Shown: positions 1 through 36,267 of the stretch, in pieces | Layout: every line of letters starts with the position of its first letter | Numbering within the stretch: the stretch's first letter is position 1 | Source of the DNA: a bacterium | GTDB lineage: Bacteria > Patescibacteriota > Minisyncoccia > Sungbacterales > HO2-52-23 | Assembly: GCA_030697525.1 (NCBI GenBank) | Contig: JAUYPW010000019.1 | Span: forward strand, 1-36,446 | Reading direction: 5' to 3' | Length of the DNA: 36,446 nucleotides | Program-made: the position numbers and the translations under genes | The notes under the pieces: model-generated | Told to the model about the DNA's origin: nothing | Seen by the model: only the letters and a program-made list of their open reading frames with translations | Database searches by the model: none

Positions 1-2
1 TA

Positions 3-273
3 GGAGACCAGGATTCGAACTAGCATCAAAGTTTAGAAGAGAGAATTTGAGCCAAGTTCTAGGAACGACGAGGAGATCGTGCATACATGCACCTCTCCGA
101 GGAGTGACGAAGAAATTGGCCAAATTCTCTCTTCCCTTCGGGTGATTCAATTCCCGCCCATCTTCTGCGTTACTCGTTGCTCGTGTATCTAAAGATACAC
201 TTCGCTCCTCGCGCCTTGAATCTGGGACGGGAATTGATTCACTAAATTGATGTTAGTTCGAATCCTGGTCTCC
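3..273. repeat. Large cloverleaf palindrome E1 with tRNA-3'-end-like termini
   Basis: The two ends (3-29 and 247-273) are a 27-bp inverted repeat with only one G:T pair. Inside are two arms. Arm 1 pairs 37-55 with 116-133 and is tipped by the hairpin GTGCATACATGCAC (79-92). Arm 2 pairs 143-156 with 228-241, one mismatch, and is tipped by GTGTATCTAAAGATACAC (183-200). A small CCCTTCGGG hairpin sits between the arms. The outer strand reads like the 3' part of a tRNA (GTTCGAATC followed by CTGGTCTCC), but no complete tRNA can be folded and the T-stem is mispaired. No ORF of interest is present. About 60 nt around the arm-2 tip (159-219) recur almost unchanged at 17846-17908, whereas the stems differ. 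The structure is seen directly; mobility or function is inference. Confidence 0.85.
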
Positions 274-286
274 GTAAGCTTTAAAC

Positions 287-313
287 AAAATCGCCCCTAC
301 TGTGGGCGATTTT
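287..313. terminator. Hairpin terminator
   Basis: AAAATCGCCC and GGGCGATTTT form a 10-bp stem with A and T tracts on the two sides, so it can work in either direction. It lies just outside palindrome E1 and upstream of the tRNA-Leu/parA region. Confidence 0.6.
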
Positions 314-327
314 AAAATGGGCAAGGT

Positions 328-402
328 GGGATTCGCCCCGTCATTCGACTGGACGCCCCGTCGAACCTGTGGGGTCGGATGACCCCATGACGGGGCGAAC
401 CC
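328..402. repeat. Compact cloverleaf palindrome E0
   Basis: The outer stem pairs 328-343 with 388-402 (GGGATTCGCCCCGTCA against TGACGGGGCGAACCC, one bulged base). It encloses two small hairpins: CGAC (347-350) with GTCG (360-363), and GGGGTC-GGAT-GACCCC (371-386). The outer stem plus two inner arms is a miniature of the larger elements in this window, without shared sequence. It fills the gap between the terminator and tRNA-Leu; no coding potential is seen. Confidence 0.7.
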
Positions 403-416
403 TAAAATTTTATAAA

Positions 417-500
417 TGCCGCGGGGGAGAGTTGAACTCCCATGAGGTTGCCCTCGCAGGATTTTGAGTCCTGTGTGTCTGCCAGTTCCACCACCGCGGC
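417..500 (-). tRNA. tRNA-Leu (anticodon CAA)
   Basis: On the minus strand the acceptor 5' half GCCGCGG (494-500) pairs with CCGCGGC (418-424). The anticodon arm is CAGGA-CTCAAAA-TCCTG, giving anticodon CAA, which reads UUG. A long variable arm (GCGAGGGCAACCTCAT) marks it as class II, and the T-loop TTCAACT is intact in GGGAG/CTCCC. The discriminator is A (417). CCA is not encoded, so it must be added by a nucleotidyltransferase. It is transcribed away from parA. Confidence 0.92.
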
Positions 501-537
501 GTTTTTAGATTATACATTAAGTTACCACTAATTTCAA

Positions 538-566
538 TTGAGTTTTTGGTCCGGATGTTTTAAAAT
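538..566 (+). promoter_or_regulatory. parA promoter (leaderless spacing)
   Basis: TTGAGT (538-543), a 17-nt spacer and TAAAAT (561-566). Only 7 nt separate the -10 from the ATG at 574, so the transcript would begin at or next to the start codon. The AGGAG directly abutting the ATG is too close to act as a Shine-Dalgarno sequence. Confidence 0.6.
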
Positions 567-573
567 CTAGGAG

Positions 574-1347
574 ATGGCTAAGATAATTACTCTTTGCAAT
601 GCCAAGGGCGGAGTTGGTAAATCAACAACGGCGCAGAACCTGGCCGCTTTTTTAACCGCTTTTGGGAAGAAAGTTCTTTTGACAGATTTTGATCCGCAGG
701 CCAACACGACCTCTGGTGTCGGTTTAAACCCCAGGCGTATGGAAAAATCGGTTTATCACGCGCTTATAGGAAAGGTTTCTGCCGAGTCGGTTATAAAAAA
801 TACATCAATTTTGGCCATGCACCTTCTGCCTTCCTCATCAGCCCTTACCGGCGCGGGTATAGAACTTATTGACTTGCCGCACAGAGAATATAAACTAAAA
901 GAGATTTTGGATTCTGTCAGACGAAGGTACGATTTTATAATTATTGATTCCCCGCCCAGCATCGGACTTCTAACAATCAACGCCTTGACCGCGTGCCAAA
1001 AAATTATAATTCCTGTACAATGTGAATATTATGCTCTTGAGGGTCTGGCTGATTTGATGCATACCATACGCATGATCAATGCCAATTTCAAAATGAAAAT
1101 TGGCATAATGGGCGCGCTGCTTACCATGTACGACCGCAAATCACGTTTGCACCGAGCCGTAGAGAAAGAAATAAGGCGTAAGTTTCCGGGGTATGTCTTT
1201 GAAACGGTTATCCCGCGCAATGTCAGTCTGGCCGAGGCTCCATCTTTTGGAAAAACTATTTTGCAGTATGATCCTTACTCGCACGGTGCGAAAGCATACA
1301 GGCAGCTTGCTCAAGAGGTGTTAAAATTAGAAAATAACAATAATTAA
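574..1347 (+). CDS. parA: ParA/Soj chromosome-partitioning ATPase
   Basis: This is the ATPase that positions ParB-bound origin regions during segregation and binds DNA non-specifically in its ATP form. The deviant Walker A motif KGGVGKST is at residues 11-18, including the signature first lysine. DFDPQAN follows near residue 39 and IIDSPPS marks the Walker B strand. The 257-aa length is typical of chromosomal Soj proteins without an N-terminal HTH. The start at 574 gives the standard MAKIITLCNAKGG opening and fits the promoter spacing. parB follows after 1 nt, so the two form an operon. No clear parS-like site (GTTTCACGTGAAAC type) was found in the window. Confidence 0.96.
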   Translation: MAKIITLCNAKGGVGKSTTAQNLAAFLTAFGKKVLLTDFDPQANTTSGVGLNPRRMEKSVYHALIGKVSAESVIKNTSILAMHLLPSSSALTGAGIELIDLPHREYKLKEILDSVRRRYDFIIIDSPPSIGLLTINALTACQKIIIPVQCEYYALEGLADLMHTIRMINANFKMKIGIMGALLTMYDRKSRLHRAVEKEIRRKFPGYVFETVIPRNVSLAEAPSFGKTILQYDPYSHGAKAYRQLAQEVLKLENNNN

Positions 1348-1348
1348 A

Positions 1349-2389
1349 ATGTCCGATTCTTTGGGTCGCGGTCTTGAATCTTTAATACCTGAAAAATCTC
1401 CGGAAGAAGTTCCGGAGTCTTTTACTGTTCCAGAAGAGGAAGCATCCAAGTCCGAACTGGCAATAGATCCACAGGCCTCGGTGGTACCGTCGGGGCAGGC
1501 ATTCTTAACTTCTAGCACACCAGCCGTCGAACAGATCTCTGCCCGAAGTTATCAGGACAACTTTACTCCCCGCCGAAGTGAGTCCGTCTTTTGGATTGAG
1601 ATTGAAAAAATAGAATCCAATCCTTTTCAGCCGAGGCGCGAGTTTGATCCCGAAGCGTTAAAGGATTTATCGTCTTCTATCCGAGAGCATGGAATTATTC
1701 AGCCGCTTTTGGTTACCAAAAGAGAATTTGAGACGCCCACGGGGCTAGAAGTGAAGTATCAGCTTATTGCCGGTGAGCGTCGCTGGCGCGCGGCGCAGCT
1801 TGCCGGACTCTCGCAGGTTCCGGCAGTAGTGCGCCGCGGTATGCCGGATGACCGCATAAAACTTGAGCTGGCTTTGATAGAAAATATCCAGAGGGAAGAC
1901 CTAAACGCGTTTGAACGCGCCAAAGCATTTAAGCAATTGATGGATGAATTTCATCTGATGCACAAAGAAGTTGCGGCTAGAGTGGGCAAATCAAGAGAAA
2001 TGGTTTCCAACACTCTCCGTCTTCTGACTCTGCCACAGGAGATTCAAGAAAGTCTTTCAAAAGGCAGGCTAAACGAAGGACAGGCACGCGCTGTTTTGAT
2101 GGTCGGAGATGATCAAAGTAAGCAGATGGAGGTATATACCGCCATTTTAAGTGATGATCTATCGGTGCGGGAGGCCGAAAATAAAGCTCGTCAGGTTGGT
2201 GGGCGAACCTTGGTTCCTCGCAAAAGACACTCACAGATCCAAGACCCCGAACTTAGAGATCTGCAAAATAAACTGCAAGAGAAACTCGGCACCAAAGTAC
2301 AGTTCCAAAAAATGGGCGACAAGGGCAAGATAGTGGTTGAGTTTTATTCGGAAGAAGAGCTTCGCAGTATTTTGGACAAACTAACTTAG
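1349..2389 (+). CDS. parB: ParB/Spo0J partition protein
   Basis: This is the centromere-binding partner of ParA, a CTP-dependent DNA clamp in characterised members. A low-complexity acidic N-terminus of about 75 residues is followed by the ParB N-terminal domain (ESNPFQPRREFDPEAL, then GERRWRAAQLAG, the CTP-binding signature). The helix-turn-helix (KEVAARVGKSREMVSNTLRLL) comes next, then a C-terminal dimerisation region. The length of 346 aa is slightly long because of the N-terminal extension. The gene starts 1 nt after parA. Its last 9 nt overlap the end of the convergent rel gene. Confidence 0.95.
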   Translation: MSDSLGRGLESLIPEKSPEEVPESFTVPEEEASKSELAIDPQASVVPSGQAFLTSSTPAVEQISARSYQDNFTPRRSESVFWIEIEKIESNPFQPRREFDPEALKDLSSSIREHGIIQPLLVTKREFETPTGLEVKYQLIAGERRWRAAQLAGLSQVPAVVRRGMPDDRIKLELALIENIQREDLNAFERAKAFKQLMDEFHLMHKEVAARVGKSREMVSNTLRLLTLPQEIQESLSKGRLNEGQARAVLMVGDDQSKQMEVYTAILSDDLSVREAENKARQVGGRTLVPRKRHSQIQDPELRDLQNKLQEKLGTKVQFQKMGDKGKIVVEFYSEEELRSILDKLT

Positions 2390-4111
2390 CAATTTAAAGC
2401 CAACCTCTTTCACCTCCTTTACTTCCTTAAGTTTTAGCATCAGTTTTTCTAATTCTCGGCGATTTTTTAAGGTGGCTTTAATGTTTATCAGAGGATAGTT
2501 TTTGTTTTTTTCATCCGTCAGCATACCCTGTATGCTGATTTTTTGTCTGGCAAAGATATCGGTTAGATCTCTTATAAGTCCCACTCGGTCTCTGGCTGTT
2601 ATCTTGAACTCCGCCTTTTCTCCTCCGTGTTTTTGAAAAAGTTTCTCGTCCTGCACTTTTCTTATGGTGCTCATAATTTTCCGGCGAGCCTCCCCGCTTT
2701 TAACGAATTTCAGCCAATCAGAACTTGGTTTGCGTCCCTTTTGAACCAGTATTTCTACCAGGTCGCCGACTTCAAGCTTGTGGTCTAGCGGCACCATCTT
2801 GCCGTTTACCTTAGCACCCGTGGCGGTGGTTCCCACGTCTGTATGAATATGATAAGCGAAATCTATAGGAGTTGATCCTTCGGGCAGATCCACCACATCT
2901 CCTTTGGGGGTGAGAACAAAAATGCGATCTTTAAAAAAATCTATTTTTAGAGATTCCAAAAATTCATCCGGATTTTCAATGTCTTTTTGCCATTCTTTAA
3001 TTTGGTTGATCCAAGAGAATTGTTTTTGGTCAGCGAAAGAAACTCCCCGTCTGTCACGGTTTTTATTTGAATCTTTTTTATATTCTGAATAGGCCCAGTG
3101 AGCGGCAATGCCATGCTCCGCCTCCTCGTGCATTTCTTTGGTTCTTAACTGTATTTCTACCAGATTGTTTTGTGGCCCGAAAACTGTAGTGTGCAACGAC
3201 CGGTACCCATTGGGTTTGGGCAGGGCGATATAGTCTTTTATTTGTCCCGGAACCGGCGGCCAGAGCTTATGGATTATGCCTAGAGCCGCGTAGCAGTCTT
3301 CCACCGAAGTTAAGATTATGCGCAGGGCCGCAATATCTGTAATTTTGGCCAGATCCATATCGTGTTTAAGAAGTTTGCGGTAAAGACTGTAATAGTGCTT
3401 GATTCGGGAATCCACATTCAAAAATTTTATTTCTTCCTTGAGAAGTTCTTCAACCAAAACAGGTTTTATTCTCTCTAAATACTTGCCCCAAGTTTGGTAT
3501 TTTTCTTTGGTCGTGCGTATTAGCCAATCATGCTCATCGGGATAGACATAAGGGAAAGAGAGGTCTTCCAGTTTGGAGGAAAGTTTGCTCATGCCGAGAC
3601 GATACGCCAAGGGAGCATATATTTCTAAAGTCTCCCGCGCAATTCTTTTTTGTTTTTCCGGCGGAAGATATTGCAAGGTCTCCATATTGTGCAGGCGGTC
3701 CACTAGTTTCAATAGAACTATGCGGATATCCTCACCGATCGCCAGAAACATTTTGCGCAGACTCTCGGCTGACCTCTCTGACCCTTTGTAGCGGATCTTA
3801 TCCAGCTTGGTGACACCTTCAACCAAAAAAGCTATTTCCTCTCCGAAAAGATTTTTTATGTGGGATCTGTTACAATCGCCGTCTTCGCAAGTGTCATGGA
3901 GTAGAGCGGCGGCAACTGTTTTGGTATCGAGCTGCATTTCGGCAAGTCTGGTGGCAGTAGAGAGAGGGTGGACAATAAAAGGATCTCCGGACTTTCTCTT
4001 CTGCCCCTGATGGGCCTGGGCCGCAAAATGATACGCCTTTTCAACAAATTCTAAATCTGCCGCTGGGCGGTTTTGTTTTTTTAGGATATCAATGAGTTTT
4101 CCAAAAGCCAT
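2381..4111 (-). CDS. Short Rel/SpoT (p)ppGpp synthetase/hydrolase
   Basis: RelA/SpoT homologue that makes and degrades the alarmone (p)ppGpp. The hydrolase HD domain (about 22-175) keeps H48, HDTCED (72-77) and KLVDRLHN. The synthetase domain (about 225-345) keeps YRSLHTTV and EIQLRTKEMHEEAEHGIAAHW. The motif that usually reads RFKD in bifunctional enzymes is QIKD (290-293). A TGS domain (about 395-458) and an ACT domain (about 500-574) follow. At 576 aa it is far shorter than the usual 700-750 aa: the helical/zinc-finger region between TGS and ACT is nearly gone. The start abuts the topA stop with no gap, so it is the last gene of dprA-topA-rel. Both catalytic activities are inferred from intact motifs. 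Confidence 0.92.
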   Translation of the reverse strand: MAFGKLIDILKKQNRPAADLEFVEKAYHFAAQAHQGQKRKSGDPFIVHPLSTATRLAEMQLDTKTVAAALLHDTCEDGDCNRSHIKNLFGEEIAFLVEGVTKLDKIRYKGSERSAESLRKMFLAIGEDIRIVLLKLVDRLHNMETLQYLPPEKQKRIARETLEIYAPLAYRLGMSKLSSKLEDLSFPYVYPDEHDWLIRTTKEKYQTWGKYLERIKPVLVEELLKEEIKFLNVDSRIKHYYSLYRKLLKHDMDLAKITDIAALRIILTSVEDCYAALGIIHKLWPPVPGQIKDYIALPKPNGYRSLHTTVFGPQNNLVEIQLRTKEMHEEAEHGIAAHWAYSEYKKDSNKNRDRRGVSFADQKQFSWINQIKEWQKDIENPDEFLESLKIDFFKDRIFVLTPKGDVVDLPEGSTPIDFAYHIHTDVGTTATGAKVNGKMVPLDHKLEVGDLVEILVQKGRKPSSDWLKFVKSGEARRKIMSTIRKVQDEKLFQKHGGEKAEFKITARDRVGLIRDLTDIFARQKISIQGMLTDEKNKNYPLINIKATLKNRRELEKLMLKLKEVKEVKEVGFKLLS

Positions 4112-6166
4112 TTAGGATTTATCTTGTCTGGGATCTTTCCACGAAGCAAAATCACACTTCGGATAATTTGAGCAGCCAAAAAAGTTTCTGCCGCGGCGGG
4201 TTCGTTTTATAATAACATCTCCTTCTATGCACTTGGGGCACTTCAGGCCAACCAGTAGTACTTCTTCTTTTATGGGCTTGGTGTTTTTACAATCGGGGAA
4301 ACCGGAACAGGCCATAAAGCGGCCAAATCTTCCAGTACGGATAATCATCGGCTTACCGCACTTTTCGCAAATCTCGTTAGTTTCTTCCACCACGGTTTTT
4401 TTCTCAACTTCTTCATATTTTTCTTCCAGATTTTTGGCGAAAGGGATATAAAATTCTTTAATAATTTTTTTCCACTCAACGGTTCCCTCGGCTATATTAT
4501 CCAACTCCTCCTCCATTTTGGCGGTAAATTGGATGTCCACTATCTGGGGGAAATGCTCAACTAGAATATCATTTACCAAAAATCCAGTTTCGGTGGGTGC
4601 AAGTCGCCTGCTTTCATTCTTTTGAACATAATTTCTGTCTTGAATAGTAGAAATGGTAGGGGCGTAAGTGGATGGGCGTCCAATGCCGTTTTGCTCCAAT
4701 ATTTTGATCAGCGAGGCTTCAGAATAACGGGCCGGAGGTTCAGTGAAGTGCTGTTCAGGTTTTAACTCCATAAGTTTTAAATTTTCTTCGGGCTTAATTT
4801 CCGGAAGTTCATTTTCGGTAAATTTGCTTGGATAGATCTTTAAAAACCCGTCAAATTTTAAAATTTGCCCATTGGCCCGGAAAGTATAATTGGCGGCTTT
4901 GATATCTACGGTGGTGGCGTCAAAAATCGCCGTAGGCATTTGGGTTGCCAAAAATCTGCGCCAGATTAAGTCGTATAGCTTAAATTGTCTGGCGTCCAAA
5001 AAGTTTTTTATGGAATCCGGAGTGCGCCAAGGGTCGGTTGGTCTGATGGCCTCATGCGCTTCCTGCGCGCCCTTAGTTTTGGTCTTAAAAATTCTTGGTT
5101 GTGGCAATGTGTATTTTTCTCCGACTTCCTTTTGCAGAAAAGACTTCGCTTCTTCCACGGCATCGGCGGATAAGTTAAGCGAATCAGTACGCATATAGGT
5201 TATGAGACCAACATGCCCATCTCCGACCTCAATTCCTTCGTAGAGCTGTTGGGCTAGCCTCATGGTTTGCTTGGCAGAAAAACCCAGCCGTTGGAAAGCA
5301 GCCTGCTGAAGAGTGGAAGTGGTGAAAGGCGGCAGGGGGTTTTTGCTGACAGATTTTTTCTCAACTTTTTCTACAACCCACTCCTCTTTGGGTAATCTTT
5401 CTACTATTGAAGTGGTGTCTTTTTCGTTTTTCAGATCAAATTTGTCCAAAGTCTTGTCGTCTTTTTTGTGCAAAAAAGCTTCAAATTTAAGATTATCTCC
5501 CAATTTGCTTAGCATTGCCGAAATGGTCCAGTATTCCTCGGGTTTGAATTTTTGAATTTCTCGTTCTCGTTCGACAATCAGCCGCACGGCTACCGATTGT
5601 ACGCGCCCGGCCGATAATCCTTTAAAAACTTTTTTCCATAGAAATGGTGAAAGTTTATAACCCACCAACCTATCTAAAATACGTCTTGCTTGCTGGGCGT
5701 TTACCAGTTTTTCATCTATTTCCCGCGGGTTTTTCAGCGCGTTATCAATCGCCTTTTTAGTGATTTCATGAAATACAATTCTTTCTACCTGTGGATTTGT
5801 TTTGGATTTTGGAATTTTGGAATTTTGAATTTGTTTAGAATTTAGAATTTCGGATTTCGGATTTCCCAGGCCTAAGGCCTGGGTGAGGTGCCAAGCTATT
5901 GATTCCCCCTCGCGGTCTTCATCAGTTGCCAGTATGACCCTTTTGGATTTAGCCACCTCTTCTTTAAGTCTTTTTATGACCGGTTTGGCTTTTACCGGAA
6001 TTACATATTTGGGTTCAAAATCGTTTTCGGTGTCTACTCCCAGTTTGGATTTTGGGAGGTCGCGGACATGTCCGTAGGAAGAATCCACAACAAAATCAGC
6101 TCCCAAAAATCGGGAGATAGTACGGGCTTTGGTGGGGGATTCTACGATGATTAAACTTTTAGGCAT
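4112..6166 (-). CDS. topA: DNA topoisomerase I (TopA)
   Basis: Type IA topoisomerase that relaxes negative supercoils through a 5'-phosphotyrosine link. The TOPRIM domain opens with LIIVESPTKARTI and carries TDEDREGE (81-88). The catalytic tyrosine is Y324 in GLITYMRTDS. The C-terminus has two four-cysteine zinc fingers (CEKC...CSGFPDC and CPKC...CSNYPKC). Residues about 102-126 are a lysine/asparagine/serine-rich insertion encoded by AT-rich mini-repeats, between WHLTQALGLG and VERIVFHEITKKAI; it should be a surface loop. The length of 684 aa is normal. It lies between dprA and rel in one minus-strand unit. Confidence 0.96.
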   Translation of the reverse strand: MPKSLIIVESPTKARTISRFLGADFVVDSSYGHVRDLPKSKLGVDTENDFEPKYVIPVKAKPVIKRLKEEVAKSKRVILATDEDREGESIAWHLTQALGLGNPKSEILNSKQIQNSKIPKSKTNPQVERIVFHEITKKAIDNALKNPREIDEKLVNAQQARRILDRLVGYKLSPFLWKKVFKGLSAGRVQSVAVRLIVEREREIQKFKPEEYWTISAMLSKLGDNLKFEAFLHKKDDKTLDKFDLKNEKDTTSIVERLPKEEWVVEKVEKKSVSKNPLPPFTTSTLQQAAFQRLGFSAKQTMRLAQQLYEGIEVGDGHVGLITYMRTDSLNLSADAVEEAKSFLQKEVGEKYTLPQPRIFKTKTKGAQEAHEAIRPTDPWRTPDSIKNFLDARQFKLYDLIWRRFLATQMPTAIFDATTVDIKAANYTFRANGQILKFDGFLKIYPSKFTENELPEIKPEENLKLMELKPEQHFTEPPARYSEASLIKILEQNGIGRPSTYAPTISTIQDRNYVQKNESRRLAPTETGFLVNDILVEHFPQIVDIQFTAKMEEELDNIAEGTVEWKKIIKEFYIPFAKNLEEKYEEVEKKTVVEETNEICEKCGKPMIIRTGRFGRFMACSGFPDCKNTKPIKEEVLLVGLKCPKCIEGDVIIKRTRRGRNFFGCSNYPKCDFASWKDPRQDKS
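5789..5863. repeat. AT-rich mini-repeat inside topA
   Basis: Tandem degenerate units of the type GGAATTTT / GAATTT / CGGATTT, read in frame as a low-complexity insertion in the TOPRIM region of TopA. The same style of unit recurs in the comEC metallo-beta-lactamase gene (25105-25139). Confidence 0.7.
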
Positions 6167-6184
6167 TTTTAAATGTTTAAATAT

Positions 6185-7279
6185 TTAAATTTTTTGGTAA
6201 GTGTCTCCTCCCATATTTTTTATTTTTCCCTTAAGCTCCAACATGGAAAGGGAAGACAGAAGTACGGAGGTATTTAGTCCAGTCTTTTCTACTAAAGCGT
6301 CAACGCCCAAAGGTTCTTCCAGCAACTGCAACACTGTCCATTCCTTTTCGTCTATGGGCTCGCTAGAGTTCAAACCTTCTAGTTCAGTATAGTCTAATCC
6401 GAGCTCGTCTAAAATGTCTTTGGCGCTCGTTACCAGTTTTGCTCCCTGCGAAATAAGCTGATTTGGTCCGAAGGACGCCAAAGAAAATATGGAGCCGGGA
6501 ACAGCAAAAACTTCTCGGTTTTGATCAAGGGCAAGACGCGAGGTAATAAGCGCTCCTGATCTTTCGCGGGCTTCAACCACCAGCACTCCTCGGGAAAGCC
6601 CAGAGATTATTCGGTTTCTTTGCGGGAAATGTTCTTTAACGCCCGGGGTTCCGGGCGAATATTCCGACAAAACAATTCCACCGCTTTCAATAATTTTTCG
6701 CGCGAGGCCCCTGTTCTCTGGAGGAAAAATTGAAGACTGATCCACGCCGCACCCAAGAACTGCCACGGTCTTTCCTTTTTCGGCCAAAGTCGTCTCATGC
6801 GCTTGCGAATCTATGCCGGTAGCAAGACCGCTTATTATGGTCAAACCCGCTCTTACTAACCCACTTACTATTTTTTGGACTACTTCTATTCCATAAGAGG
6901 TTGGCTTTCTGGTTCCCACAACCCCCACACTCATCCCCTTTTCTGTAAGCAGTTCCATACGCCCCCTTCCATATATAAGGAAAGGCGGCGATGGTATCTC
7001 TTTTAACACGGCGGGGAATTTTTTGTCCTCTTCATTTAAGAGCCAAATGTTCTCTTTGAATAATTTTTCTATTTCTCTATCCGGATTTAAAGAAGGTTTT
7101 TTCCAGGCAATACCCGCAAGCGCCGGTTGGTTTAAGCCCACTGCCTGCAAGTCGGAGGCGCTGGCCTGCCATGCATTGGCGAGATTTCCGAAGTGTTTTT
7201 TTAAAGTTCGCAAAGATCCTCCGCCTATGTTCGGTATGGCATTGAAAGCGTTAGCAAATTTTAGTTCCATAGCGTCCAT
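6185..7279 (-). CDS. dprA: DprA/Smf DNA-processing protein
   Basis: DprA binds incoming single-stranded DNA during transformation and loads RecA. An N-terminal helix-hairpin segment (AIPNIGGGSLRTLKKHFG) precedes the Rossmann-like DprA fold with VGTRKPTSYG, SGLATGIDSQAH, GCGVDQ, FPQRNRIISGLS and REVFAVPGS. A C-terminal winged-helix-like domain ends the protein. I place the start at 7279 (364 aa). A further in-frame ATG at 7306 (373 aa) lies upstream of the predicted -10 and is unlikely. ATG 7270 is a third option. It is the first gene of dprA-topA-rel. With comEC at 23009-25373 it suggests a DNA-uptake capacity. Confidence 0.93.
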   Translation of the reverse strand: MDAMELKFANAFNAIPNIGGGSLRTLKKHFGNLANAWQASASDLQAVGLNQPALAGIAWKKPSLNPDREIEKLFKENIWLLNEEDKKFPAVLKEIPSPPFLIYGRGRMELLTEKGMSVGVVGTRKPTSYGIEVVQKIVSGLVRAGLTIISGLATGIDSQAHETTLAEKGKTVAVLGCGVDQSSIFPPENRGLARKIIESGGIVLSEYSPGTPGVKEHFPQRNRIISGLSRGVLVVEARERSGALITSRLALDQNREVFAVPGSIFSLASFGPNQLISQGAKLVTSAKDILDELGLDYTELEGLNSSEPIDEKEWTVLQLLEEPLGVDALVEKTGLNTSVLLSSLSMLELKGKIKNMGGDTYQKI

Positions 7280-7285
7280 CAAATT

Positions 7286-7314
7286 AAAATATACCACAAA
7301 CGTCATTTTGGCAA
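7286..7314 (-). promoter_or_regulatory. dprA promoter (leaderless spacing)
   Basis: On the minus strand, TTGCCA (7309-7314), 17 nt and TATTTT (7286-7291), then 6 nt to ATG 7279. It is back-to-back with the promoter of the S41 protease pair. Confidence 0.55.
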
Positions 7315-7321
7315 ATTGTAC

Positions 7322-7350
7322 TTGACTTAATGTACATGAGATTATATAAT
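7322..7350 (+). promoter_or_regulatory. Promoter of the S41 protease pair
   Basis: TTGACT (7322-7327), 17 nt and a perfect TATAAT (7345-7350), one of the strongest-looking promoters in the window. The -35 is bracketed by TGTAC and GTACA (7317-7335), a possible operator. A leader of about 33 nt carries AGGAGG (7377-7382), 7 nt before ATG 7390. Confidence 0.7.
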
Positions 7351-7389
7351 TATTAGCGGAATCTTGAAAACCAAACAGGAGGTGTGATA

Positions 7390-9740: not shown

Positions 9741-9752
9741 ACGGTGAGGATT
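9723..9752. terminator. Bidirectional terminator inside two convergent gene ends
   Basis: AATCCTCACCG (9723-9733) and CGGTGAGGATT (9742-9752) form an 11-bp stem followed by a T-run. The left arm encodes the last residues of the S41 protease (NPHRN) and the right arm encodes the last residues of Mfd on the other strand (ILTV). The two stop codons overlap in the loop. Confidence 0.75.
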
Positions 9753-11701: not shown

Positions 11702-12248
11702 TCATGGCTTTTTCCGGACTTTCTTTAATTGTTTGTTCTATGGCTACGACGGTTTTCTTAATTATTTTTTTTATAATCAACACTTCTTTGGGTGTAAATT
11801 TCTTCAAAATTATTTTTTCCGCTTCAACATGTTTTTTCCCACTTACCCCGATACGAAAACGCCAAAAATTTAGAGTTTTTAGAGATTTTATAACTGATTC
11901 TACTCCTTTATGTCCCGCCGAATGTTTGCCGAAAGACATCTTGGTACTGCCCAGAAGCAGGTCAGAATCATCATGCACCATCAAGATATTTTCCGGTTTT
12001 ATTTTATAAAATTTGGCCAGAGAAGCTGTGGCTAGTCCCGATTTGTTCATAAAAGTATTTGGGCAGACTACAACAACCTTCTCCTTTCCTGTTTTGCCTT
12101 CACTTATTTCGGCGTTAAATTTTTTGGAAAAAACAAAATCAGGGAAGTCCTGATTCGTACGGAAAGAATCACAAACCTCCCGGCCAATATTGTGGCGGGT
12201 GTTTTTAAACTCTTCCCCTGGATTTCCTAAGCCGATTATTAAGATCAT
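11685..12248 (-). CDS. pth: Peptidyl-tRNA hydrolase
   Basis: Releases tRNA from peptidyl-tRNAs that drop off ribosomes. The family signature IIGLGNPGEEFKNTRHNIG opens the protein, with catalytic His in TRHNIG. PNTFMNKSG carries the tRNA-contacting Asn, MVHDDSDL carries the catalytic Asp, and GKHSAGHKGVESVI follows. The length of 187 aa is standard. It is the first gene of pth-mfd. A TATATA-like -10 about 10 nt upstream of the ATG fits a short or absent leader. Confidence 0.95.
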   Translation of the reverse strand: MILIIGLGNPGEEFKNTRHNIGREVCDSFRTNQDFPDFVFSKKFNAEISEGKTGKEKVVVVCPNTFMNKSGLATASLAKFYKIKPENILMVHDDSDLLLGSTKMSFGKHSAGHKGVESVIKSLKTLNFWRFRIGVSGKKHVEAEKIILKKFTPKEVLIIKKIIKKTVVAIEQTIKESPEKAMNEYNQ

Positions 12249-12269
12249 GGCCAGTTTTTATATAATAGC

Positions 12270-12298
12270 TTGCGTAAAGCCCTAAAATAGTGTATAAT
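12270..12298 (+). promoter_or_regulatory. lepB promoter
   Basis: TTGCGT (12270-12275), 17 nt and TATAAT (12293-12298). The leader of about 50 nt is AT-rich with no visible Shine-Dalgarno sequence. Confidence 0.6.
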
Positions 12299-12352
12299 GC
12301 CTTAAATAAGACAAATTTTAAAGATTAAAAGATACATAAAAAATAACTAATT

Positions 12353-12943
12353 ATGGAGAATCAGTCAAATTTTGAAGAAAAGAGTAGTTTAACCAACAAG
12401 ATCCTGCTTGAGCTCTGGAGTGTGGTCAAAATTTTTTTGGTGGCGCTGGCCATTGTCATGCCCCTTCGCTATTATGTTGCCCAACCTTTTATAGTGCGCG
12501 GGTCTTCCATGGAGCCCAATTTCGTTAATAGAGAATACTTGGTGGTTGATGAGCTTACCTATCGTTTCCGCGAACCTCAAAGAGATGAGGCCATTGTTCT
12601 TCGTTACCCACAAAATCCAAATGAGTACCTTATTAAAAGGATAATAGGTCTTCCGGGGGAGGAGATAGAGATAGCCAGCGGAGAGGTGAAGATAAAAAAC
12701 AAAGAATATCCGGAAGGGCTCATGCTTGCCCAACCTTATCTAGAGGCGTCTAAAAGGCCAACTTACCCGGGGGTTAAAACAAGATTGGGGGAAGATGAAT
12801 TTTTTGTTTTAGGGGATAACCGACCATCTAGTTCTGATTCGAGAGCCTGGGGAGTTTTGCCGAAAAAATTTATTGTTGGAAGAGCTATGTTTACCGTTTT
12901 GCCGTTATCCAGATTTGGATTTGTATCAATTATCAATAATTAA
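12353..12943 (+). CDS. lepB: Signal peptidase I
   Basis: Membrane serine/lysine protease that removes signal peptides from exported proteins. A single N-terminal membrane helix (about 23-45) is followed by the catalytic serine in RGSSMEPN (S52) and the general-base lysine in YLIKRIIGLPGE (K95). The conserved FVLGDNRPSSSDSRAWG box is complete. The length of 196 aa matches Gram-positive-type enzymes. It starts a long plus-strand run that reaches ftsA. Confidence 0.95.
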   Translation: MENQSNFEEKSSLTNKILLELWSVVKIFLVALAIVMPLRYYVAQPFIVRGSSMEPNFVNREYLVVDELTYRFREPQRDEAIVLRYPQNPNEYLIKRIIGLPGEEIEIASGEVKIKNKEYPEGLMLAQPYLEASKRPTYPGVKTRLGEDEFFVLGDNRPSSSDSRAWGVLPKKFIVGRAMFTVLPLSRFGFVSIINN

Positions 12944-12947
12944 TTTC

Positions 12948-14276
12948 GTGGCTAGACCAAAAAAAATTTTAATACCCAGAGATAACTTTAATCAATTCGA
13001 CTGCTTTAACTCCAAAGAGCGGCTCATTAATATTTTTAGAAAAAAACTTGGATCACTGGCGGATTTTTATGGTTTTTCAAAAACTCACACCTCGCCTTTT
13101 GAAAACCACCGTTTTTTCAGTCCTCTGACTAAAGCGGGCTTGCTGGACGATCGGGAGTTTGTGATTCATAAAAACAAGATCAATGATTTTATAACCCTTC
13201 GGCCCTCAAGTATACTCTCAGCCCTTCGCGCTTACATAACCAACAAGCTCTTTGATCTTTCTCATCCGCTAAAGATGTCTGTTGACGAAGAGTGCTTTCG
13301 CGCGAACAGCAAAGAGGCGGCCGGTCTTGTAGTATATCCAGATTTTAGTCTGCTTATGTTCGGAGAGGCCAATGCGGTAGCTGAAGCCGAAATCTTTCAA
13401 GTGGTATGGCAGTCGGTGCGGGATCTGGGGTTTCCTACAGATAAATTAGAAGTAAAAATAAATAGTCTGGGTTGCAAAGAGTGTCGTCCGTCTTATCGCT
13501 CTACATTGTCAGCCTATCTTCGTTCTCGTCTTAGTCGTCTTTGCAAGAACTGCAAGAAAGATTTAAAAGTAAGTCCCACAAATATATTTTCCTGCGGTGA
13601 GGAGAAGTGCAAAATAGTGGCAGGGAACGCCCCTGCCGTTCTTGACTTTTTATGTGAAGCATGCAAGAAATACTTAAGAGAGTTACTTGAGTTTCTGGAC
13701 GAGATGTCTATACCTTACCTCCTGGACGGCAAATTTTTTAGAGATAGATCTCTGTATAATAAAATAATCTGGGAAATATGGGCGACCGGCACAGCTCAAC
13801 CAGTTGAGGAAGGTGGGGATAGCAACATCAAGGACTATTTAATTGGAGAGGGTGGTGGTCTTTCTGGTGTTTTTGAGATTTTGAGTGAAAGACCTCTGGA
13901 TGTATTTAGCGGAACGGTGTTTGTTGAAAATTTGGAAAGATTTGTTTTTCAGGAAAAATTACTGCTGGGCGGGAATCCAAAACCAAATATATTTCTTATC
14001 CAACTGGGAGAACTAGCGAAAAGAAAAAGTTTTGGTCTTATGGAAAATCTTCGCAAGGCAGGAATTGAAGTTGGAGAATCTTTAAGTAAAGATGCCATAA
14101 AGTCCCAGCTTAAAAGCGCGGAAGTGGCTGAAGTGGCCCTGATACTTGGGCAGAAGGAAGCTCTGGACAGGACTATAATTGTCAGAGACACACAATCAGG
14201 TATTCAGGAGACCGTACCACAAGACAAATTGATTGATTTTTTGAAGAGGAAATTAGAAAAACAAAATCAGTTATAA
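12948..14276 (+). CDS. Histidyl-tRNA synthetase-like protein with degenerate active site
   Basis: The order of segments matches class II HisRS. A motif-1/2 region reads ITLRPSSILSALRAYI then ECFRANSKEA. The HisRS-specific stretch KINSLGCKECRPSYRSTLSAYL continues with three more Cys pairs (CKNC, CGEEKC, CEAC). A C-terminal anticodon-binding domain spans about 335-440. Histidine-binding elements have decayed: LRPEGT is LRPSSI, RGLDYYTGTVFE is FRDRSLYNKIIWE (one Arg kept), and GGRYDG is GEGGGLSG. It may be a divergent synthetase, a HisZ-like regulator or an inactive paralogue. The start is GTG 12948, 4 nt after lepB (443 aa), giving VARPKKILIPRDNF; an ORF start at 12873 would run back into lepB. 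Confidence 0.72.
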   Translation: MARPKKILIPRDNFNQFDCFNSKERLINIFRKKLGSLADFYGFSKTHTSPFENHRFFSPLTKAGLLDDREFVIHKNKINDFITLRPSSILSALRAYITNKLFDLSHPLKMSVDEECFRANSKEAAGLVVYPDFSLLMFGEANAVAEAEIFQVVWQSVRDLGFPTDKLEVKINSLGCKECRPSYRSTLSAYLRSRLSRLCKNCKKDLKVSPTNIFSCGEEKCKIVAGNAPAVLDFLCEACKKYLRELLEFLDEMSIPYLLDGKFFRDRSLYNKIIWEIWATGTAQPVEEGGDSNIKDYLIGEGGGLSGVFEILSERPLDVFSGTVFVENLERFVFQEKLLLGGNPKPNIFLIQLGELAKRKSFGLMENLRKAGIEVGESLSKDAIKSQLKSAEVAEVALILGQKEALDRTIIVRDTQSGIQETVPQDKLIDFLKRKLEKQNQL

Positions 14277-14277
14277 A

Positions 14278-14619
14278 ATGGATTGCCTTTTTTGTAAAAT
14301 ATCATCCGGAGAAATCAAGTCCGACGCGGTTTACGAAGATGCCGAGGTTGTGGTTTTCAAAGATATTCATCCCAAAGCCCCGGTACATTTATTGGTTGTC
14401 CCAAAAGAACACATTCAATCCATAGCCCACCTAGAGGTAAACCACAACGATATAATTTCCAAACTTATATATACTGCCAAAAATACGGCAGCCAATCTAA
14501 AATTAAATGGCTATAAATTAGTTTTCAATGTTGGTCGAGAGGGGGGACAAGTTATAGATCATCTACATTTACATTTGCTGGGAGGATGGGGGAACGCCAA
14601 AGAAAGTTTAAATATTTAA
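14278..14619 (+). CDS. HIT family nucleotide hydrolase (HinT-like)
   Basis: Histidine-triad protein; relatives hydrolyse purine nucleoside phosphoramidates and aminoacyl-AMP adducts. The opening CLFCKISSGEIKSD with a CxxC pair, PVHLLVVPKEHI and the catalytic triad HLHLHLLGG near the C-terminus are diagnostic. The length of 113 aa is typical. It begins 1 nt after the HisRS-like gene, so co-translation is likely. The specific HinT substrate cannot be told from sequence. Confidence 0.93.
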   Translation: MDCLFCKISSGEIKSDAVYEDAEVVVFKDIHPKAPVHLLVVPKEHIQSIAHLEVNHNDIISKLIYTAKNTAANLKLNGYKLVFNVGREGGQVIDHLHLHLLGGWGNAKESLNI

Positions 14620-14630
14620 AAATTAATTAT

Positions 14631-14864
14631 ATGGTTCAGGTTCGAAAAAGAGAAGGAGAGACGGCGGGGGCAATGCTCCGCAGATTTACCCGACGAGTTC
14701 AACAGTCGGGAGCTTTAATTGAATCCCGCAAGAGACGTTTTTATAAATACCCGCCTACTAAGATAGAAAAGCGCGCCAGAGCCCTGCGTAGGATTAAAAC
14801 CACCAAAGAGAGAACTAGGCTGGCTAAATTAGGTAAACCGGTGGACGAAAGAAGACGAAAATAA
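14631..14864 (+). CDS. rpsU: 30S ribosomal protein S21
   Basis: Small basic ribosomal protein of the 30S platform near the anti-Shine-Dalgarno end of 16S rRNA. The sequence from MVQVRKREGETAGAMLRRF through the Arg/Lys-rich tail (LAKLGKPVDERRRK) matches bS21 over its full 77 residues. ATG 14631 was chosen because the in-frame ATG at 14586 lies inside the HIT gene and adds unrelated residues. The gene sits 11 nt after HIT and 9 nt before yqeY; rpsU-yqeY pairing is common in bacteria. Confidence 0.95.
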   Translation: MVQVRKREGETAGAMLRRFTRRVQQSGALIESRKRRFYKYPPTKIEKRARALRRIKTTKERTRLAKLGKPVDERRRK

Positions 14865-14873
14865 CAATCTTTA

Positions 14874-15329
14874 ATGCTTAAAGAAAAAATAGAAGCGGAG
14901 TTAAAGGACGCCATGAAAGAAAAAGCCGAGCTCAAAGTCTCGGTTTTGCGGATGTTTTTATCTTCTTTGCGGAATAAGGCCATTGAAAAAAGAGCTAAGG
15001 GTATGGAGATGACGGAAGATGATATGGTGGCCATAATGCGATCTGAAGTAAAGAAGCGAAAAGACTCTATCCAGGAGTTTAATAAAGGCGGAAGAAAAGA
15101 TTTGGTTGACAAAGAAGAAGCCGAGCTAAAGCTTTTAGAGAACTATCTTCCAGCTGAAATGTCGGATGAAGATTTAGAGAAAATAGTCAAAAAAGTTTTG
15201 GAAACTATAGGACCGGTTACTATCAAAGATTTCGGGCGAGTGATAGGACAAGTCATGAAAGAAACCAAAGGACAGGCATCCGGCGACAGAGTAAGCTCAA
15301 CGGTTAAGAAATTTTTGCAACCTGTTTAA
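14874..15329 (+). CDS. GatB/YqeY domain protein
   Basis: YqeY-family protein whose fold matches the tRNA-binding tail domain of the GatB amidotransferase subunit; its exact role is unknown. Typical features are the helical opening (LKEKIEAELKDAMKEKAELKVSVLRM), DKEEAELKLLENYLPAEMSDEDLEKIV, and a C-terminal GRVIGQVMKETKGQASGDRVS. At 151 aa it is full length. It lies in the rpsU-yqeY-ybeY series. Confidence 0.92.
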   Translation: MLKEKIEAELKDAMKEKAELKVSVLRMFLSSLRNKAIEKRAKGMEMTEDDMVAIMRSEVKKRKDSIQEFNKGGRKDLVDKEEAELKLLENYLPAEMSDEDLEKIVKKVLETIGPVTIKDFGRVIGQVMKETKGQASGDRVSSTVKKFLQPV

Positions 15330-15346
15330 CGTAGACAGACGAAATA

Positions 15347-15742
15347 ATGTTTAAAATAAAACCTATAATTGATCACATTAGAGCCATGCTCCCCAAGCGC
15401 TTATCTTCTAAACTTCCCCGGGAAATCGGGGTTGTTTTGTTAAAACCCGAAGAATCTGCCAAACTAAATATGATCTATCGGAACAAAAACAAAGCGACCA
15501 ACGTGCTTTCTTTTAATTACGGATCAGACTACGGCGAAATACTTATTTGTCCGGAAATTGTCAAGAAAGAAGCCAAAGAGGCTGGAAATACACAGGTGTT
15601 TCAGATGACATGGATGATGGTGCATGGTATGATTCATTTATCGGAATTACATCACGAAAAATCTCAAGTGGCAGATGGTGAGTTTGCTAAGTTGGAGGGA
15701 AAAATTTTGTCCCAAATTTTTAAGAAGAAGCCTAGAGTTTAG
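15347..15742 (+). CDS. ybeY: Endoribonuclease YbeY (rRNA maturation factor)
   Basis: Zinc endoribonuclease involved in 16S rRNA 3'-end maturation and ribosome quality control. The zinc motif HGMIHLSELHH keeps the three histidines of the family's H-x3-H-x5-H pattern. NVLSFN corresponds to the usual DVLSFP and YRNKNKATNVLSF to the preceding substrate loop. At 131 aa it is slightly short. It ends just before a mini-repeat that separates it from ftsA. Confidence 0.92.
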   Translation: MFKIKPIIDHIRAMLPKRLSSKLPREIGVVLLKPEESAKLNMIYRNKNKATNVLSFNYGSDYGEILICPEIVKKEAKEAGNTQVFQMTWMMVHGMIHLSELHHEKSQVADGEFAKLEGKILSQIFKKKPRV

Positions 15743-15797
15743 AACCTAGAATGAAGCTCCAGATTCTAGTTTCTGTATTCTAGATTCTGGTATAGAT
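15743..15797. repeat. CTAG-rich mini-repeat upstream of ftsA
   Basis: Degenerate direct and inverted units (AGATTCTAGTTTCTG, TATTCTAGATTCTGG) fill the whole ybeY-ftsA gap and run up to the ftsA start. Similar CTAGTTTCTAGTC-type tracts precede fusA and rpsJ and lie inside cobO. Confidence 0.65.
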
Positions 15798-17024
15798 CTG
15801 GCTCGCAACATTATAACAGCGCTAGATGTCGGCACCTCTACCGTACAGGTGGTTGTGGCCGAAAAGAAAAAGGAGGGTGGCCTCCAAATTTTAGGCACGG
15901 GCGCTTCTCCTTCTTATGGGGTTCGCCGAGGGGTCGTGGTTGATTTGGAGGATACAATCAGCTCTATTCGTCATGCGCTTGAGGATGCCAAAAAAGCGGC
16001 GCAAGTTTCAGTCAGGCGGACATGGCTTTCTATTGGGGGATCGCATGTATCAGTATCTTCCTCACGGGGGGTGGTGGCCGTGTCTCGTGCGGACGGAGAG
16101 ATTTCTCCTGAAGATGTAAACCGAGCTATTTCGGCAGCCGAAACTTTCATACCTAAAAATCCTAACAGGGAAATTATCCACATGATTCCTCGAGATTTCA
16201 GGGTGGATCATGAGCCTGGTATCAAAAACCCTATTGGTATGCATGGGGTAAGACTGGAGGTGGACACTCTAGTGATTGATTGCTCAACCCCGTTTCTAAA
16301 AAATCTTTTCAAGTGTGTGGAAGGGGCCGGTCTTGCTATTGAAGATTATGTTTTTTCTCCTCTGGCTGCTTCAGAGGTGGTCTTAAGCAAAAGGCAAAAA
16401 GAGTTGGGAACGGTTTTGGTGGATATCGGGGGAGGAACAGCTAGTTTTATAGTTTTTGAAGAAGGGGTTCCGATTCATGCCGGTGTTTTCCCTATAGGCG
16501 GAGGACATATAACCAACGATGTGGCTATCGGTTTCCGGACCCACGTGGATGTAGCTGAGAAAATAAAATTATCTTACGGTTCATGTTTCTCGCAGGAGTT
16601 TACCAAAAAAGACGCCATAAGACTTGCTGAATTTGTGGAGGGGGAGGAAGCTATTTTTTCCAGAAAAGAACTTGCCGAGATAGTTGAAGCCAGACTCAAA
16701 GATGTTCTTGAGTTGCTGCAAAAAGATTTACGGAGAATAAATAGAAACCAGCTTCTTCCGGCCGGAGTGGTTTTGGTTGGTGGCTCATCTCTTCTTCCCG
16801 GAGTTGTGGGTTTGGCCAAAAGAGAAATGAGATTACCAGTGGAGCTTGGAACTTTTCAAGATTTGGGGTCGGAATTTAGTCCGGAAGAGTCTCTTGGTCT
16901 GGCTACGGTTTTGGGCACGGTGCGCTGGGCCGAAAACCAGCTTGCCCAGCCAAGTTTTTGGGGCAGAGCCTCACGCCGAAGTCAGAATTCTTTCATGAAG
17001 TGGCTGAAGTCGTTGTTGCCATAA
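15798..17024 (+). CDS. ftsA: Cell division protein FtsA (non-ATG start)
   Basis: Actin-like protein that tethers FtsZ to the membrane. The phosphate-1 motif ITALDVGTSTV lies upstream of the first ATG/GTG/TTG available in frame (GTG 15849). The reading frame is open back to a TAG at 15747, so translation must begin at a non-standard codon. CTG 15798 gives LARNIITALDVGTS, matching typical FtsA N-termini; ATT 15807 or 15810 are alternatives. Later motifs are VDIGGGTASFIVFEEG (phosphate 2) and VVLVGGSSLLPGV (adenosine). A C-terminal amphipathic helix (RRSQNSFMKWLKSLLP) fits membrane binding. A terminator follows. ftsZ is not adjacent. Confidence 0.9.
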   Translation: MARNIITALDVGTSTVQVVVAEKKKEGGLQILGTGASPSYGVRRGVVVDLEDTISSIRHALEDAKKAAQVSVRRTWLSIGGSHVSVSSSRGVVAVSRADGEISPEDVNRAISAAETFIPKNPNREIIHMIPRDFRVDHEPGIKNPIGMHGVRLEVDTLVIDCSTPFLKNLFKCVEGAGLAIEDYVFSPLAASEVVLSKRQKELGTVLVDIGGGTASFIVFEEGVPIHAGVFPIGGGHITNDVAIGFRTHVDVAEKIKLSYGSCFSQEFTKKDAIRLAEFVEGEEAIFSRKELAEIVEARLKDVLELLQKDLRRINRNQLLPAGVVLVGGSSLLPGVVGLAKREMRLPVELGTFQDLGSEFSPEESLGLATVLGTVRWAENQLAQPSFWGRASRRSQNSFMKWLKSLLP

Positions 17025-17048
17025 TCAATTTATATTATTTGAAATCAA

Positions 17049-17072
17049 AAAACCCACCAAAAGGTGGGTTTT
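17049..17072. terminator. Bidirectional terminator between ftsA and the convergent gene
   Basis: AAAACCCACC-AAAA-GGTGGGTTTT, a perfect 10-bp stem with A/T tracts on both sides, lying between two convergent genes. Confidence 0.85.
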
Positions 17073-17076
17073 AAAA

Positions 17077-17484
17077 TTACCAACTTATTTCTATTTTGAG
17101 ATGGGTTTGGTTTCCATAGTCGTCATTACTTCCACATCTTGGATCATAGCTGGTTTTGAAAGTTGCTTTGTAGCTCTCTTTTTCCAGAAGTCGTACAGCT
17201 TCGCATACATAAAATGAATCTCTTTTGGGCACGGGACCATTACCTTCGTATGAGCCACAATGGATAACAGTATCTTTTTTTCCTTGAGCGACTGCCTCAT
17301 CAATTTCCTTTAGGCATTTGGGAAACAAATAACTCCTTGCTCTTTTTTTCATTTCTTTCAGCAGTGCAAGATTTTTTACCGCTTCTATACGACGTCTTTC
17401 CAGTCTATCTATTTCCAGTCGTTCTTGAGCCACGATTGTTTCCTCTAGGCTCAACCTGGCTCTACTCTTTTTTGTTTTAGCCAC
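17077..17484 (-). CDS. Unknown 135-aa basic protein
   Basis: No family recognised. The first ~70 residues are highly charged and helical (EETIVAQERLEIDRLERRRIEAVKNLALLKEMKKRARSY), a probable coiled coil. The second half is more polar with three cysteines (HCGSYEGN, YVCEAV, PRCGSND) and ends in a beta-like segment HLKIEISW. I prefer GTG 17484 (VAKTKKSRARL), which follows a G-rich Shine-Dalgarno-like tract; an ATG at 17514 would add 10 residues encoded by that tract. No signal peptide or membrane helix is seen. It sits alone on the minus strand between ftsA and palindrome E2. Confidence 0.65.
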   Translation of the reverse strand: MAKTKKSRARLSLEETIVAQERLEIDRLERRRIEAVKNLALLKEMKKRARSYLFPKCLKEIDEAVAQGKKDTVIHCGSYEGNGPVPKRDSFYVCEAVRLLEKESYKATFKTSYDPRCGSNDDYGNQTHLKIEISW

Positions 17485-17538
17485 GACACCCCCCCCTTTG
17501 TAAAAGAATGACAAAAATGGATAGCTACCTTAGATTAA

Positions 17539-17567
17539 CTAGTACTCTCTAGAAAAGACCAAGTCAA
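17539..17567 (-). promoter_or_regulatory. Possible promoter of the 135-aa gene
   Basis: Minus-strand TTGACT (17562-17567), 17 nt and TACTAG (17539-17544). The -10 is weak. It is followed by a leader of about 50 nt with the G-rich ribosome-binding tract. Confidence 0.4.
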
Positions 17568-17670
17568 GTCTATTAAACATTAGTGCATAACTTGTGGATT
17601 TTTTGTTTAAAAACAGTTGATAATTTTCCGTTTGTCAAGGGTTGTAAATGAAAAATCTATATGCTAGCTT

Positions 17671-17959
17671 GGAGAACAGGATTTGAACCAGTGTCAGCTT
17701 TAGAAGCTAAAAAATGAGATGATTTCGCGACACGACGACGAAGGTGTGTGTTTACACACACCGAGGAGGAGTAACAAACCTGCCTGCCGGTAGGCAGGGA
17801 AATCAACCATTTTTTAGCTTCCCCAGAGGGCGGGACAATTTTGACTATCTTCTGCGTTTCTTGTCGCTCGTGTATCTAAAGATACACTTCGCTCCTCGAG
17901 CCTTGAATATAGTCAAAATTGTCTCCGCTAAATTGATACTGGTTCAAATCCTGCTCTCC
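17671..17959. repeat. Large cloverleaf palindrome E2, relative of E1
   Basis: The outer stem pairs 17671-17696 with 17934-17959 (few mismatches) and again resembles a tRNA T-arm plus acceptor 3' strand (GGTTCAAATCC). Arm 1 pairs 17703-17716 with 17808-17821 (GAAGCTAAAAAATG, perfect). Its tip carries two hairpins: GGTGTGTGTTTACACACACC and CCTGCCTGCCGGTAGGCAGG. Arm 2 pairs 17834-17848 with 17909-17923 (GACAATTTTGACTAT, perfect) and is tipped by GTGTATCTAAAGATACAC (17870-17887). The arm-2 core is nearly identical to that of E1 (159-219), but all stems differ. The element occupies most of the gene-free stretch 17515-18025 between ftsA and ftsZ. Confidence 0.85.
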
Positions 17960-28315: not shown

Positions 28316-28323
28316 AATGATTG

Positions 28324-28481
28324 TTTTAGCGGTCGAAGGTAATGCTCGTAGAAAACCATTGAAAGTTTGGTTAGCATGGTTTCTGCCTCTTGGCAGAATA
28401 ACCAAACTTTCACTGAGTGAGATTTCTCGCTGGAGAAATCGAACGTGTTTTCGAGAGCGTTACCGAAGGGAACCGCTAAAA
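28324..28481. repeat. Cloverleaf palindrome A, overlapping the pepA stop
   Basis: The outer stem TTTTAGCGGT (28324-28333) / ACCGCTAAAA (28472-28481) is perfect. Arm 1 is GAAAGTTTGGTTA (28361-28373) / TAACCAAACTTTC (28399-28411), tipped by TTCTGCC-TCTT-GGCAGAA. Arm 2 is GATTTCTC-GCTG-GAGAAATC (28421-28440). Further complementarity (GTAATGCTCGTAGAAAAC against GTTTTCGAGAGCGTTAC) extends the outer stem. The same element occurs in reverse orientation at 36097-36267. The end of A encodes the last residues of PepA and its TAA stop (28460-28462). Confidence 0.9.
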
Positions 28482-36096: not shown

Positions 36097-36267
36097 ATAA
36101 GCGCGGTTTTCTCGGTAACGCTCTCGAAAACACACTCGCCTCGTCCAGCGACTCGGCTCGTTCAGTGAAAGTTTGGTTACCGAGCACTCAACAAAGCTTG
36201 AGTGCTCGGACCATGCTAACCAAACTTTCAATGGTTTTCTACGAGCATTACCTTCGACCGCGCTTAT
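36097..36267. repeat. Cloverleaf palindrome B, inverted relative of A
   Basis: The outer stem is ATAAGCGCGGT (36097-36107) / ACCGCGCTTAT (36257-36267). Arm 1 is GAAAGTTTGGTTA (36167-36179) / TAACCAAACTTTC (36217-36229), tipped by a perfect 12-bp hairpin CCGAGCACTCAA / TTGAGTGCTCGG (36180-36209). Arm 2 (36134-36160) pairs GCC--GTC with GAC--GGC around CAGC. It matches element A in reverse complement over GGTCGAAGGTAATGCTCG, TAGAAAACCATTGAAAG and TTTTCGAGAGCGTTACC, while the outer stem and hairpin tips differ on both sides. Confidence 0.9.

Follow-up and report, generated by a model that had tools for sequence, protein, structure and literature searches.

Two strongly folding palindromic elements, E1 and E2, lie in the 36,446-nucleotide contig JAUYPW010000019.1 of the Sungbacterales assembly GCA_030697525.1 (Patescibacteriota), the whole of which was analyzed here and is referred to as the window. 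They share a constant core, while the stems that carry this core are unrelated in sequence and paired in both elements, which raises the question of what kind of element retains its fold as its stems change, and how its copies arise. In our view, E1 and E2 probably represent two copies of a transposable element that is non-coding and non-autonomous, resembles a miniature inverted-repeat transposable element (MITE) and is targeted to TA dinucleotides.

Anatomy of the cloverleaf element

E1 and E2 fold with energies of -144.6 and -142.9 kcal/mol, respectively, compared with shuffle means of about -75 and -73 (z-scores of -13.4 and -14.5; 0 of 200 shuffles equally good), and GTGTATCTAAAGATACAC has exact matches at 183-200 and 17870-17887, compared with 0.01 expected by chance. 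The two elements that a preliminary description of the window had delimited, at the positions given in Table 1, are thus real. Each copy consists of an outer stem of ~27-33 bp followed by two arms, for a unit of about 260-330 bp that carries no gene and no recurring open reading frame apart from the repeat itself. Arm 1 and arm 2 are inverted relatives: a covariance model of arm 2 only (R1) recovers arm 1 of the same copies from the opposite strand, with E-values of about 1e-7 to 1e-12, which accounts for the related block that the same description had noticed at the other arm tip. The constant tip motif of arm 2 is TTC.GCGTT.CT.GTC-hairpin-CTCCTC..GCCTTGAA, and arm 1 carries its inverted relative; on the purine strand the arm 1 tip reads CGACGACGA-hairpin-GAGGAGGAG, and arm 2 has these halves swapped. 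The stems, both outer and in the arms, and the tip hairpins all vary among copies with pairing retained. Between E1 and E2 the arm stems are unrelated, as had been proposed, but the outer stems are clearly related (GGAGACCAGGATTCGAAC / GGAGAACAGGATTTGAAC).

In most elements the tip strands of one arm are complementary to those of the other in direct order, and direct-order exceeds cross-order complementarity in 23 of 30 elements. This excess is weak and partly inherent in the motif, and cross-arm tip pairing was dropped as an explanation. The outer-stem ends (window 3-20 and 256-273, and other copies from the Candidate Phyla Radiation, CPR) resemble a tRNA T-loop and acceptor 3' end (GGATTCGAAC), and some copies adjoin tRNA genes (L005, L014); a tRNA origin of the ends was rejected, the T-loop positions being broken in many copies and the ends differing in other lineages.

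Matched changes on both sides of the stems

To describe covariation we used 31 diverse arm-2 sequences picked by the core pattern, with stems and hairpins outside the selection. Pairing was found in 88.9% of cells, and 21 of 31 pairs changed on both sides. Two-sided cells numbered 166, compared with 54 +/- 6 in shuffles and at most 49 in slid versions, although relatedness among the sequences inflates two-sided counts. Within the E2 subfamily of the source genome there were 194 two-sided and 152 one-sided differences, where about 35 two-sided differences would be estimated if the sides changed independently at the same divergence. In the C7b copy a single 5-bp block has changed on both sides. 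The earlier suggestion that both stem strands are rewritten together therefore holds as a pattern; template copying as its cause does not follow, and exchange of whole arm tips can explain much of it.

Copies in the source genome and across bacteria

The source genome was taken whole (746,117 bases, 36 contigs) and yielded 17 core matches, down to an E-value of 7e-4, and 15 matches to a stricter core pattern, with 0 in the reversed control. About 16 two-armed copies, full or split, form three subfamilies, a count that includes matching contig-end halves (e.g. C8+C14 and C28+C31) joined by inference; truncated and one-armed copies occur besides. The copies lie between genes. The assembly is interrupted by the cloverleaf element, with 12 of its 72 contig ends lying inside copies, and because E1 itself starts at a contig edge, nothing but the TA at 1-2 is available as its left flank.

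Beyond this genome, the strict core pattern had 0 matches in the other 379 genomes of a 380-genome phylum sample, and a gapped core pattern recovered 49 stretches among GTDB representatives, nearly all of which adopt the same cloverleaf fold where enough flank was available. Carriers are scattered patchily over several phyla: CPR carriers are Berkel-, Staskawicz-, Harrison-, Wolfe-, Yanofsky- and Buchananbacteria, and other carriers are Elusimicrobia, Endomicrobiales, metagenome-assembled genomes (MAGs) of Pseudomonadota, one Acidobacteria MAG and Obscuribacterium. Most of these are metagenome bins, and single-contig lineage assignments may be wrong. Genomes G014 and G015 gave about 90 element matches each (about 90 per 3 Mb). 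No element match was found in the phages, plasmids and viral contigs searched.

Several related arrangements were seen alongside these copies. One-armed relatives in the source genome (G000) at C3:35418-35580 (L135), C23:9751-9913 (L116) and C19:29846-30006 (L145) keep the arm-tip motif and have a different outer stem (AAACTGTCTGTAAAGTCC / GGACTTTACAGACAGTTT), with R1 E-values of 3e-5 to 7e-3. At some G014/G015 loci (e.g. L222, L243 and L248) cloverleaf copies follow one another in tandem or with a few bases between them, and at about 40 places in these two genomes a stretch shared with the cloverleaf terminus lies next to TAGAGGATAGAGGCTAGAGG.

Empty sites in sister genomes

Joined flanks of element copies were searched in two pairs of sister genomes (G014/G015 and G017/G018), and the whole element was absent from the sister at 13 loci, nine in G014/G015 and four in G017/G018. 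Because the whole cloverleaf is absent at these orthologous sites, we conclude that the element is mobile. Six loci (L246, L036, L204, L163, L045 and L226) were clean enough for junction arithmetic, the remainder having small indels or a diverged flank, and the clean empty sites are ordinary sequence without a palindrome. At L036, one of the four G017/G018 loci, the two flanks are adjacent in G018 without the element (filled, GGGCTAG[..]CTAGTCGCGG; empty, AGGCTAGGCGCGG). At L204 the flanks are ATAG/CTAG and the empty site is AGTATAGCCCG; at L163 they are CGATAG/CTAACTC and the empty site is CTGTAACTC. Duplication of TA fits both of these loci, and a duplication of 4 bp is ruled out by them. 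Among 42 unique flank pairs, every element begins with G (42/42) and ends with C (42/42), TA adjoins the ends in 19 (left) and 24 (right) cases, compared with 0-5 at any other offset, and identical flank 4-mers occur in 1/42, compared with 1.4 expected. A 4-bp CTAG duplication, suggested by the first comparison of L036 with G018, was dropped after L204, L163 and these flank statistics. The unit is G...C, inserted whole at TA, which fits a 2-bp TA duplication.

Copies also appear in a decayed state. At L198 and L203 the sister retains a bare terminal hairpin only, with the interior missing, and the same interior-deleted state is present in the source genome at C30:2870. Terminus-only matches in G017/G018 were considered as an autonomous parent and rejected, as they are bare termini or interior-deleted remnants.

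A number of observations weigh against a TA-targeted mobile element. Identical flank 2-mers at the duplication register number 11, compared with 11.7 expected by frequency; the identity does not exceed expectation because TA is frequent on both sides, and the argument for a TA duplication accordingly comes from the few clean empty sites. With a palindromic element, moreover, a TA duplication is indistinguishable from joining with TA as the element's own end. The G014/G015 copies are old, with flanks that are often mutated, and so attest to past but not to current activity. Core constancy is partly imposed by the search pattern, and since the sequences were chosen by that pattern the constancy of its letters is no evidence. 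In the E1 subfamily, one-sided changes (90) outnumber two-sided changes (43). Finally, no mobiliser was found among Y1_Tnp, DDE_Tnp_1, DDE_5 and DDE_3 in carrier genomes, a search of four catalytic families in incomplete MAGs, where not found does not mean absent.

Candidate mobilisers and alternative explanations

Neighboring open reading frames compared at 49 loci included no recurring gene, and inspection by eye of the longest large repeats of the source genome revealed no transposase. A pair of inverted repetitive extragenic palindromic (REP) hairpins, or REPIN, that a Y1/HUH transposase (RAYT or TIRYT) mobilizes in single-stranded form would explain the inverted arm pair, and the conserved tips and structure-based recognition recall the same logic; Y1 genes are present in 10 of 15 element-bearing genomes tested and in the source genome, and the right-end TA might belong to the element as its cleavage site. 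We nevertheless think a REPIN-like element unlikely. No element lies within about 1.5 kb of any of 28 Y1 loci, searches of the other five carriers (possibly incomplete) gave no Y1_Tnp, and the ends are G...C beside TA without a GTAG or CGTC tag. The linked REP-type transposase that the preliminary description had proposed to look for was thus not found, and the Y1 genes carry repeats of their own: the only Y1_Tnp gene of the source genome (L018, C33:411-632) is flanked by several copies of TGTGCCAAGCTTAGTTTGACAC, and Y1 units in other carriers have terminal repeats mostly of the GGGACGG type; all of these repeats are unrelated to the cloverleaf. A terminus-like stretch lies near one Y1 pseudogene (L093). 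An ordinary MITE of an IS630/Tc1-mariner transposon with a TA target, like RUP, would likewise fit the TA beside both ends, the inverted termini and the lack of a gene, and an end in TA is described for most small bacterial MITEs (PMC2229807). However, the IS630-type DDE_3 domain (PF13358) occurs in 1 of 16 carrier genomes and was not found in the element-rich G014/G015, and lineages differ completely in their termini and share the interior, the reverse of a MITE defined by its terminal inverted repeats; we judge this origin to be no more probable than the REPIN-like one. An IS5/IS701-type MITE (CTAG-type target) was rejected, there being no excess of identical 4-bp duplications, with DDE_Tnp_1 (PF01609) in 3/9 carriers and DDE_5 (PF13546) in 0/9. 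The catalytic families of IS4/IS5, IS701 and IS630 were set aside as movers, as they were not found in most carriers, and no candidate for an autonomous transposon sharing the terminal repeats emerged among the transposase families searched.

The remaining alternatives concern the fold itself. The very strong fold and covariation, and the intergenic location of the source-genome copies, would suit a structured non-coding RNA gene or a cis-regulatory RNA, but ~16 copies in 746 kb, ~90 matches in 3 Mb, patchy occurrence across phyla and empty sites make this very improbable, and comparison with Rfam gave no match above the gathering score. When bounded elements were folded without G-U on a chosen strand and three sets were summed, unique mismatch contexts were 45 G-T and 44 A-C; because these are equally common, and RNA should favor G-U, a strand-specific RNA is disfavored. 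Both element strands fold alike, and alternating use of either single strand may be compatible with the mismatch counts. That the core inserts into pre-existing palindromes, one of two options offered in the preliminary description, could account for the occurrence of one core on unrelated stems, as also in the one-armed relatives, whose outer stem differs. It is the least credible of the explanations, as the clean empty sites lack a palindrome and the stems arrive together with the core as one unit. Fold-back (template-switch) repair that keeps rewriting one stem strand from the other is compatible with a MITE-like mobile element and is a possible, if somewhat doubtful, contributor: two-sided changes lie far above expectation without strand bias, and the C7b block has changed on both sides, but single-tract exchange of contiguous arm tips yields the same picture and one-sided differences persist. 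Changes in the outer stem, with 260 bp between its two strands, are the most difficult to account for.

A mobile element that may be recognized by its fold

The MITE-like reading departs from the usual MITE in that, on our best reading, conservation across phyla lies in the interior arm tips and not in the terminal repeats. We hypothesize that a trans-acting enzyme would recognize the folded arms, comprising conserved tips and paired stems, instead of a terminal repeat of fixed sequence, and would join the element to TA with duplication of the dinucleotide. Pairing would persist since only copies with matching strands get mobilized, and the arm tips, being contiguous DNA, could be swapped as whole units from copy to copy. 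Decay of old copies proceeds through one-sided mutation and through deletion of the palindrome interior, after which a bare terminal hairpin is left. The outer stem is the part least explained by this mechanism. More tentatively, and with the balance of probability against it, the cloverleaf might represent a class of shape-recognized mobile elements in which the enzyme reads a two-armed cloverleaf with conserved tips and the ends are free to change on both sides together, which would allow the element to spread between phyla. The norm for transposons is reversed here, in that the ends, usually conserved, vary and the interior, usually free, is constant, with the same tip motif in several phyla; this reversal makes it testable whether the mover reads folding rather than end sequence.

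Relation to described elements

Integron attC sites are recognized as a folded single strand of variable but paired sequence, and offer an analogy only: on reading the sequence, the cloverleaf has no attC core sites, and there is no integrase or cassette arrangement. The general properties of MITEs are present in the cloverleaf element (260-330 bp, inverted ends, non-coding; PMC2229807, PMC10969869), and bacterial MITEs with TA ends (Correia, RUP and ERIC, among others) are likewise short, non-coding and intergenic with inverted termini, their movement in trans being inferred as it is here (PMC2229807). Unlike these, the cloverleaf element is two-armed, its interior tips are conserved across phyla, its terminal repeats are free to change if both sides match, and no parental insertion sequence was found. 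REP/REPIN sequences with their RAYT (PMC3733652) share paired inverted hairpin units, a motif beside the hairpin, many intergenic copies and one-armed relatives, whereas REPs are only 20-40 bp and the far longer cloverleaf has no GTAG/CGTC tag, no linked Y1 gene and insertion as a unit at TA. The double-hairpin and repetitive hairpin elements of mitochondria are also palindromic, gene-less and probably mobile with no mover identified (PMC2800124); in sponge mitochondrial hairpins the stems are conserved and the loops vary, whereas in the bacterial, two-armed cloverleaf, with its empty sites at TA, the stems vary and the tips are constant. For most small bacterial palindromic repeats, common as they are, mobility is only inferred, whereas here empty sites are available in two sister pairs.

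We found no description of this element in the open literature, most subscription journals lying outside the search, so that a prior description is possible; the core letters, searched literally, gave only an unrelated match. Together with the empty sites and the patchy spread across phyla, this supports the earlier proposal of an undescribed mobile element.

Features of the window and other palindromes

Table 1. Positions of the cloverleaf elements and their parts in the window
Feature	Position	Strand	Remarks
TA flanking E1 on the left	1..2	.	Contig begins here; TA is the target dinucleotide
E1, complete two-armed cloverleaf element (G...C)	3..273	+	Strand follows the orientation of the preliminary description
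E1 outer stem, left strand GGAGACCAGGATTCGAACTAGCATCAA	3..29	+	Folding
E1 arm 1, tip CGACGAGG-hairpin-CGAGGAGTGACG	36..134	+	Folding; model R1 match on the minus strand, 33-137, E 3.6e-9
E1 arm 2, stem GTGATTCAATTCCCG / CGGGAATTGATTCAC	141..243	+	Folding, covariance model
E1 constant core TTCTGCGTT...CTCCTCGCGCCTTGAA	162..220	+	Hairpin 183-200
E1 outer stem, right strand	247..273	+	Folding
E2, complete two-armed cloverleaf element	17671..17959	+	Folding
E2 arm 1	17703..17821	+	Holds the 20-nt palindrome CCTGCCTGCCGGTAGGCAGG at about 17779-17798
E2 arm 2, stem GCGGGACAATTTTGACTAT / ATAGTCAAAATTGTCTCCGC	17830..17928	+	Folding, covariance model
E2 constant core	17850..17907	+	Hairpin 17870-17887

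The palindrome CCTGCCTGCCGGTAGGCAGG in arm 1 of E2 has no counterpart in other copies, and close matches to it lie at three other places in the genome. Window positions 28317-28474 and 36112-36261 hold another structured palindrome family of ~160 nt, unrelated in sequence to the cloverleaf, which also matches C10, C23, C27 and C32 of the source genome. A further long palindrome family is present in the source genome at C21:3398-3562 and C27:10133-10298.

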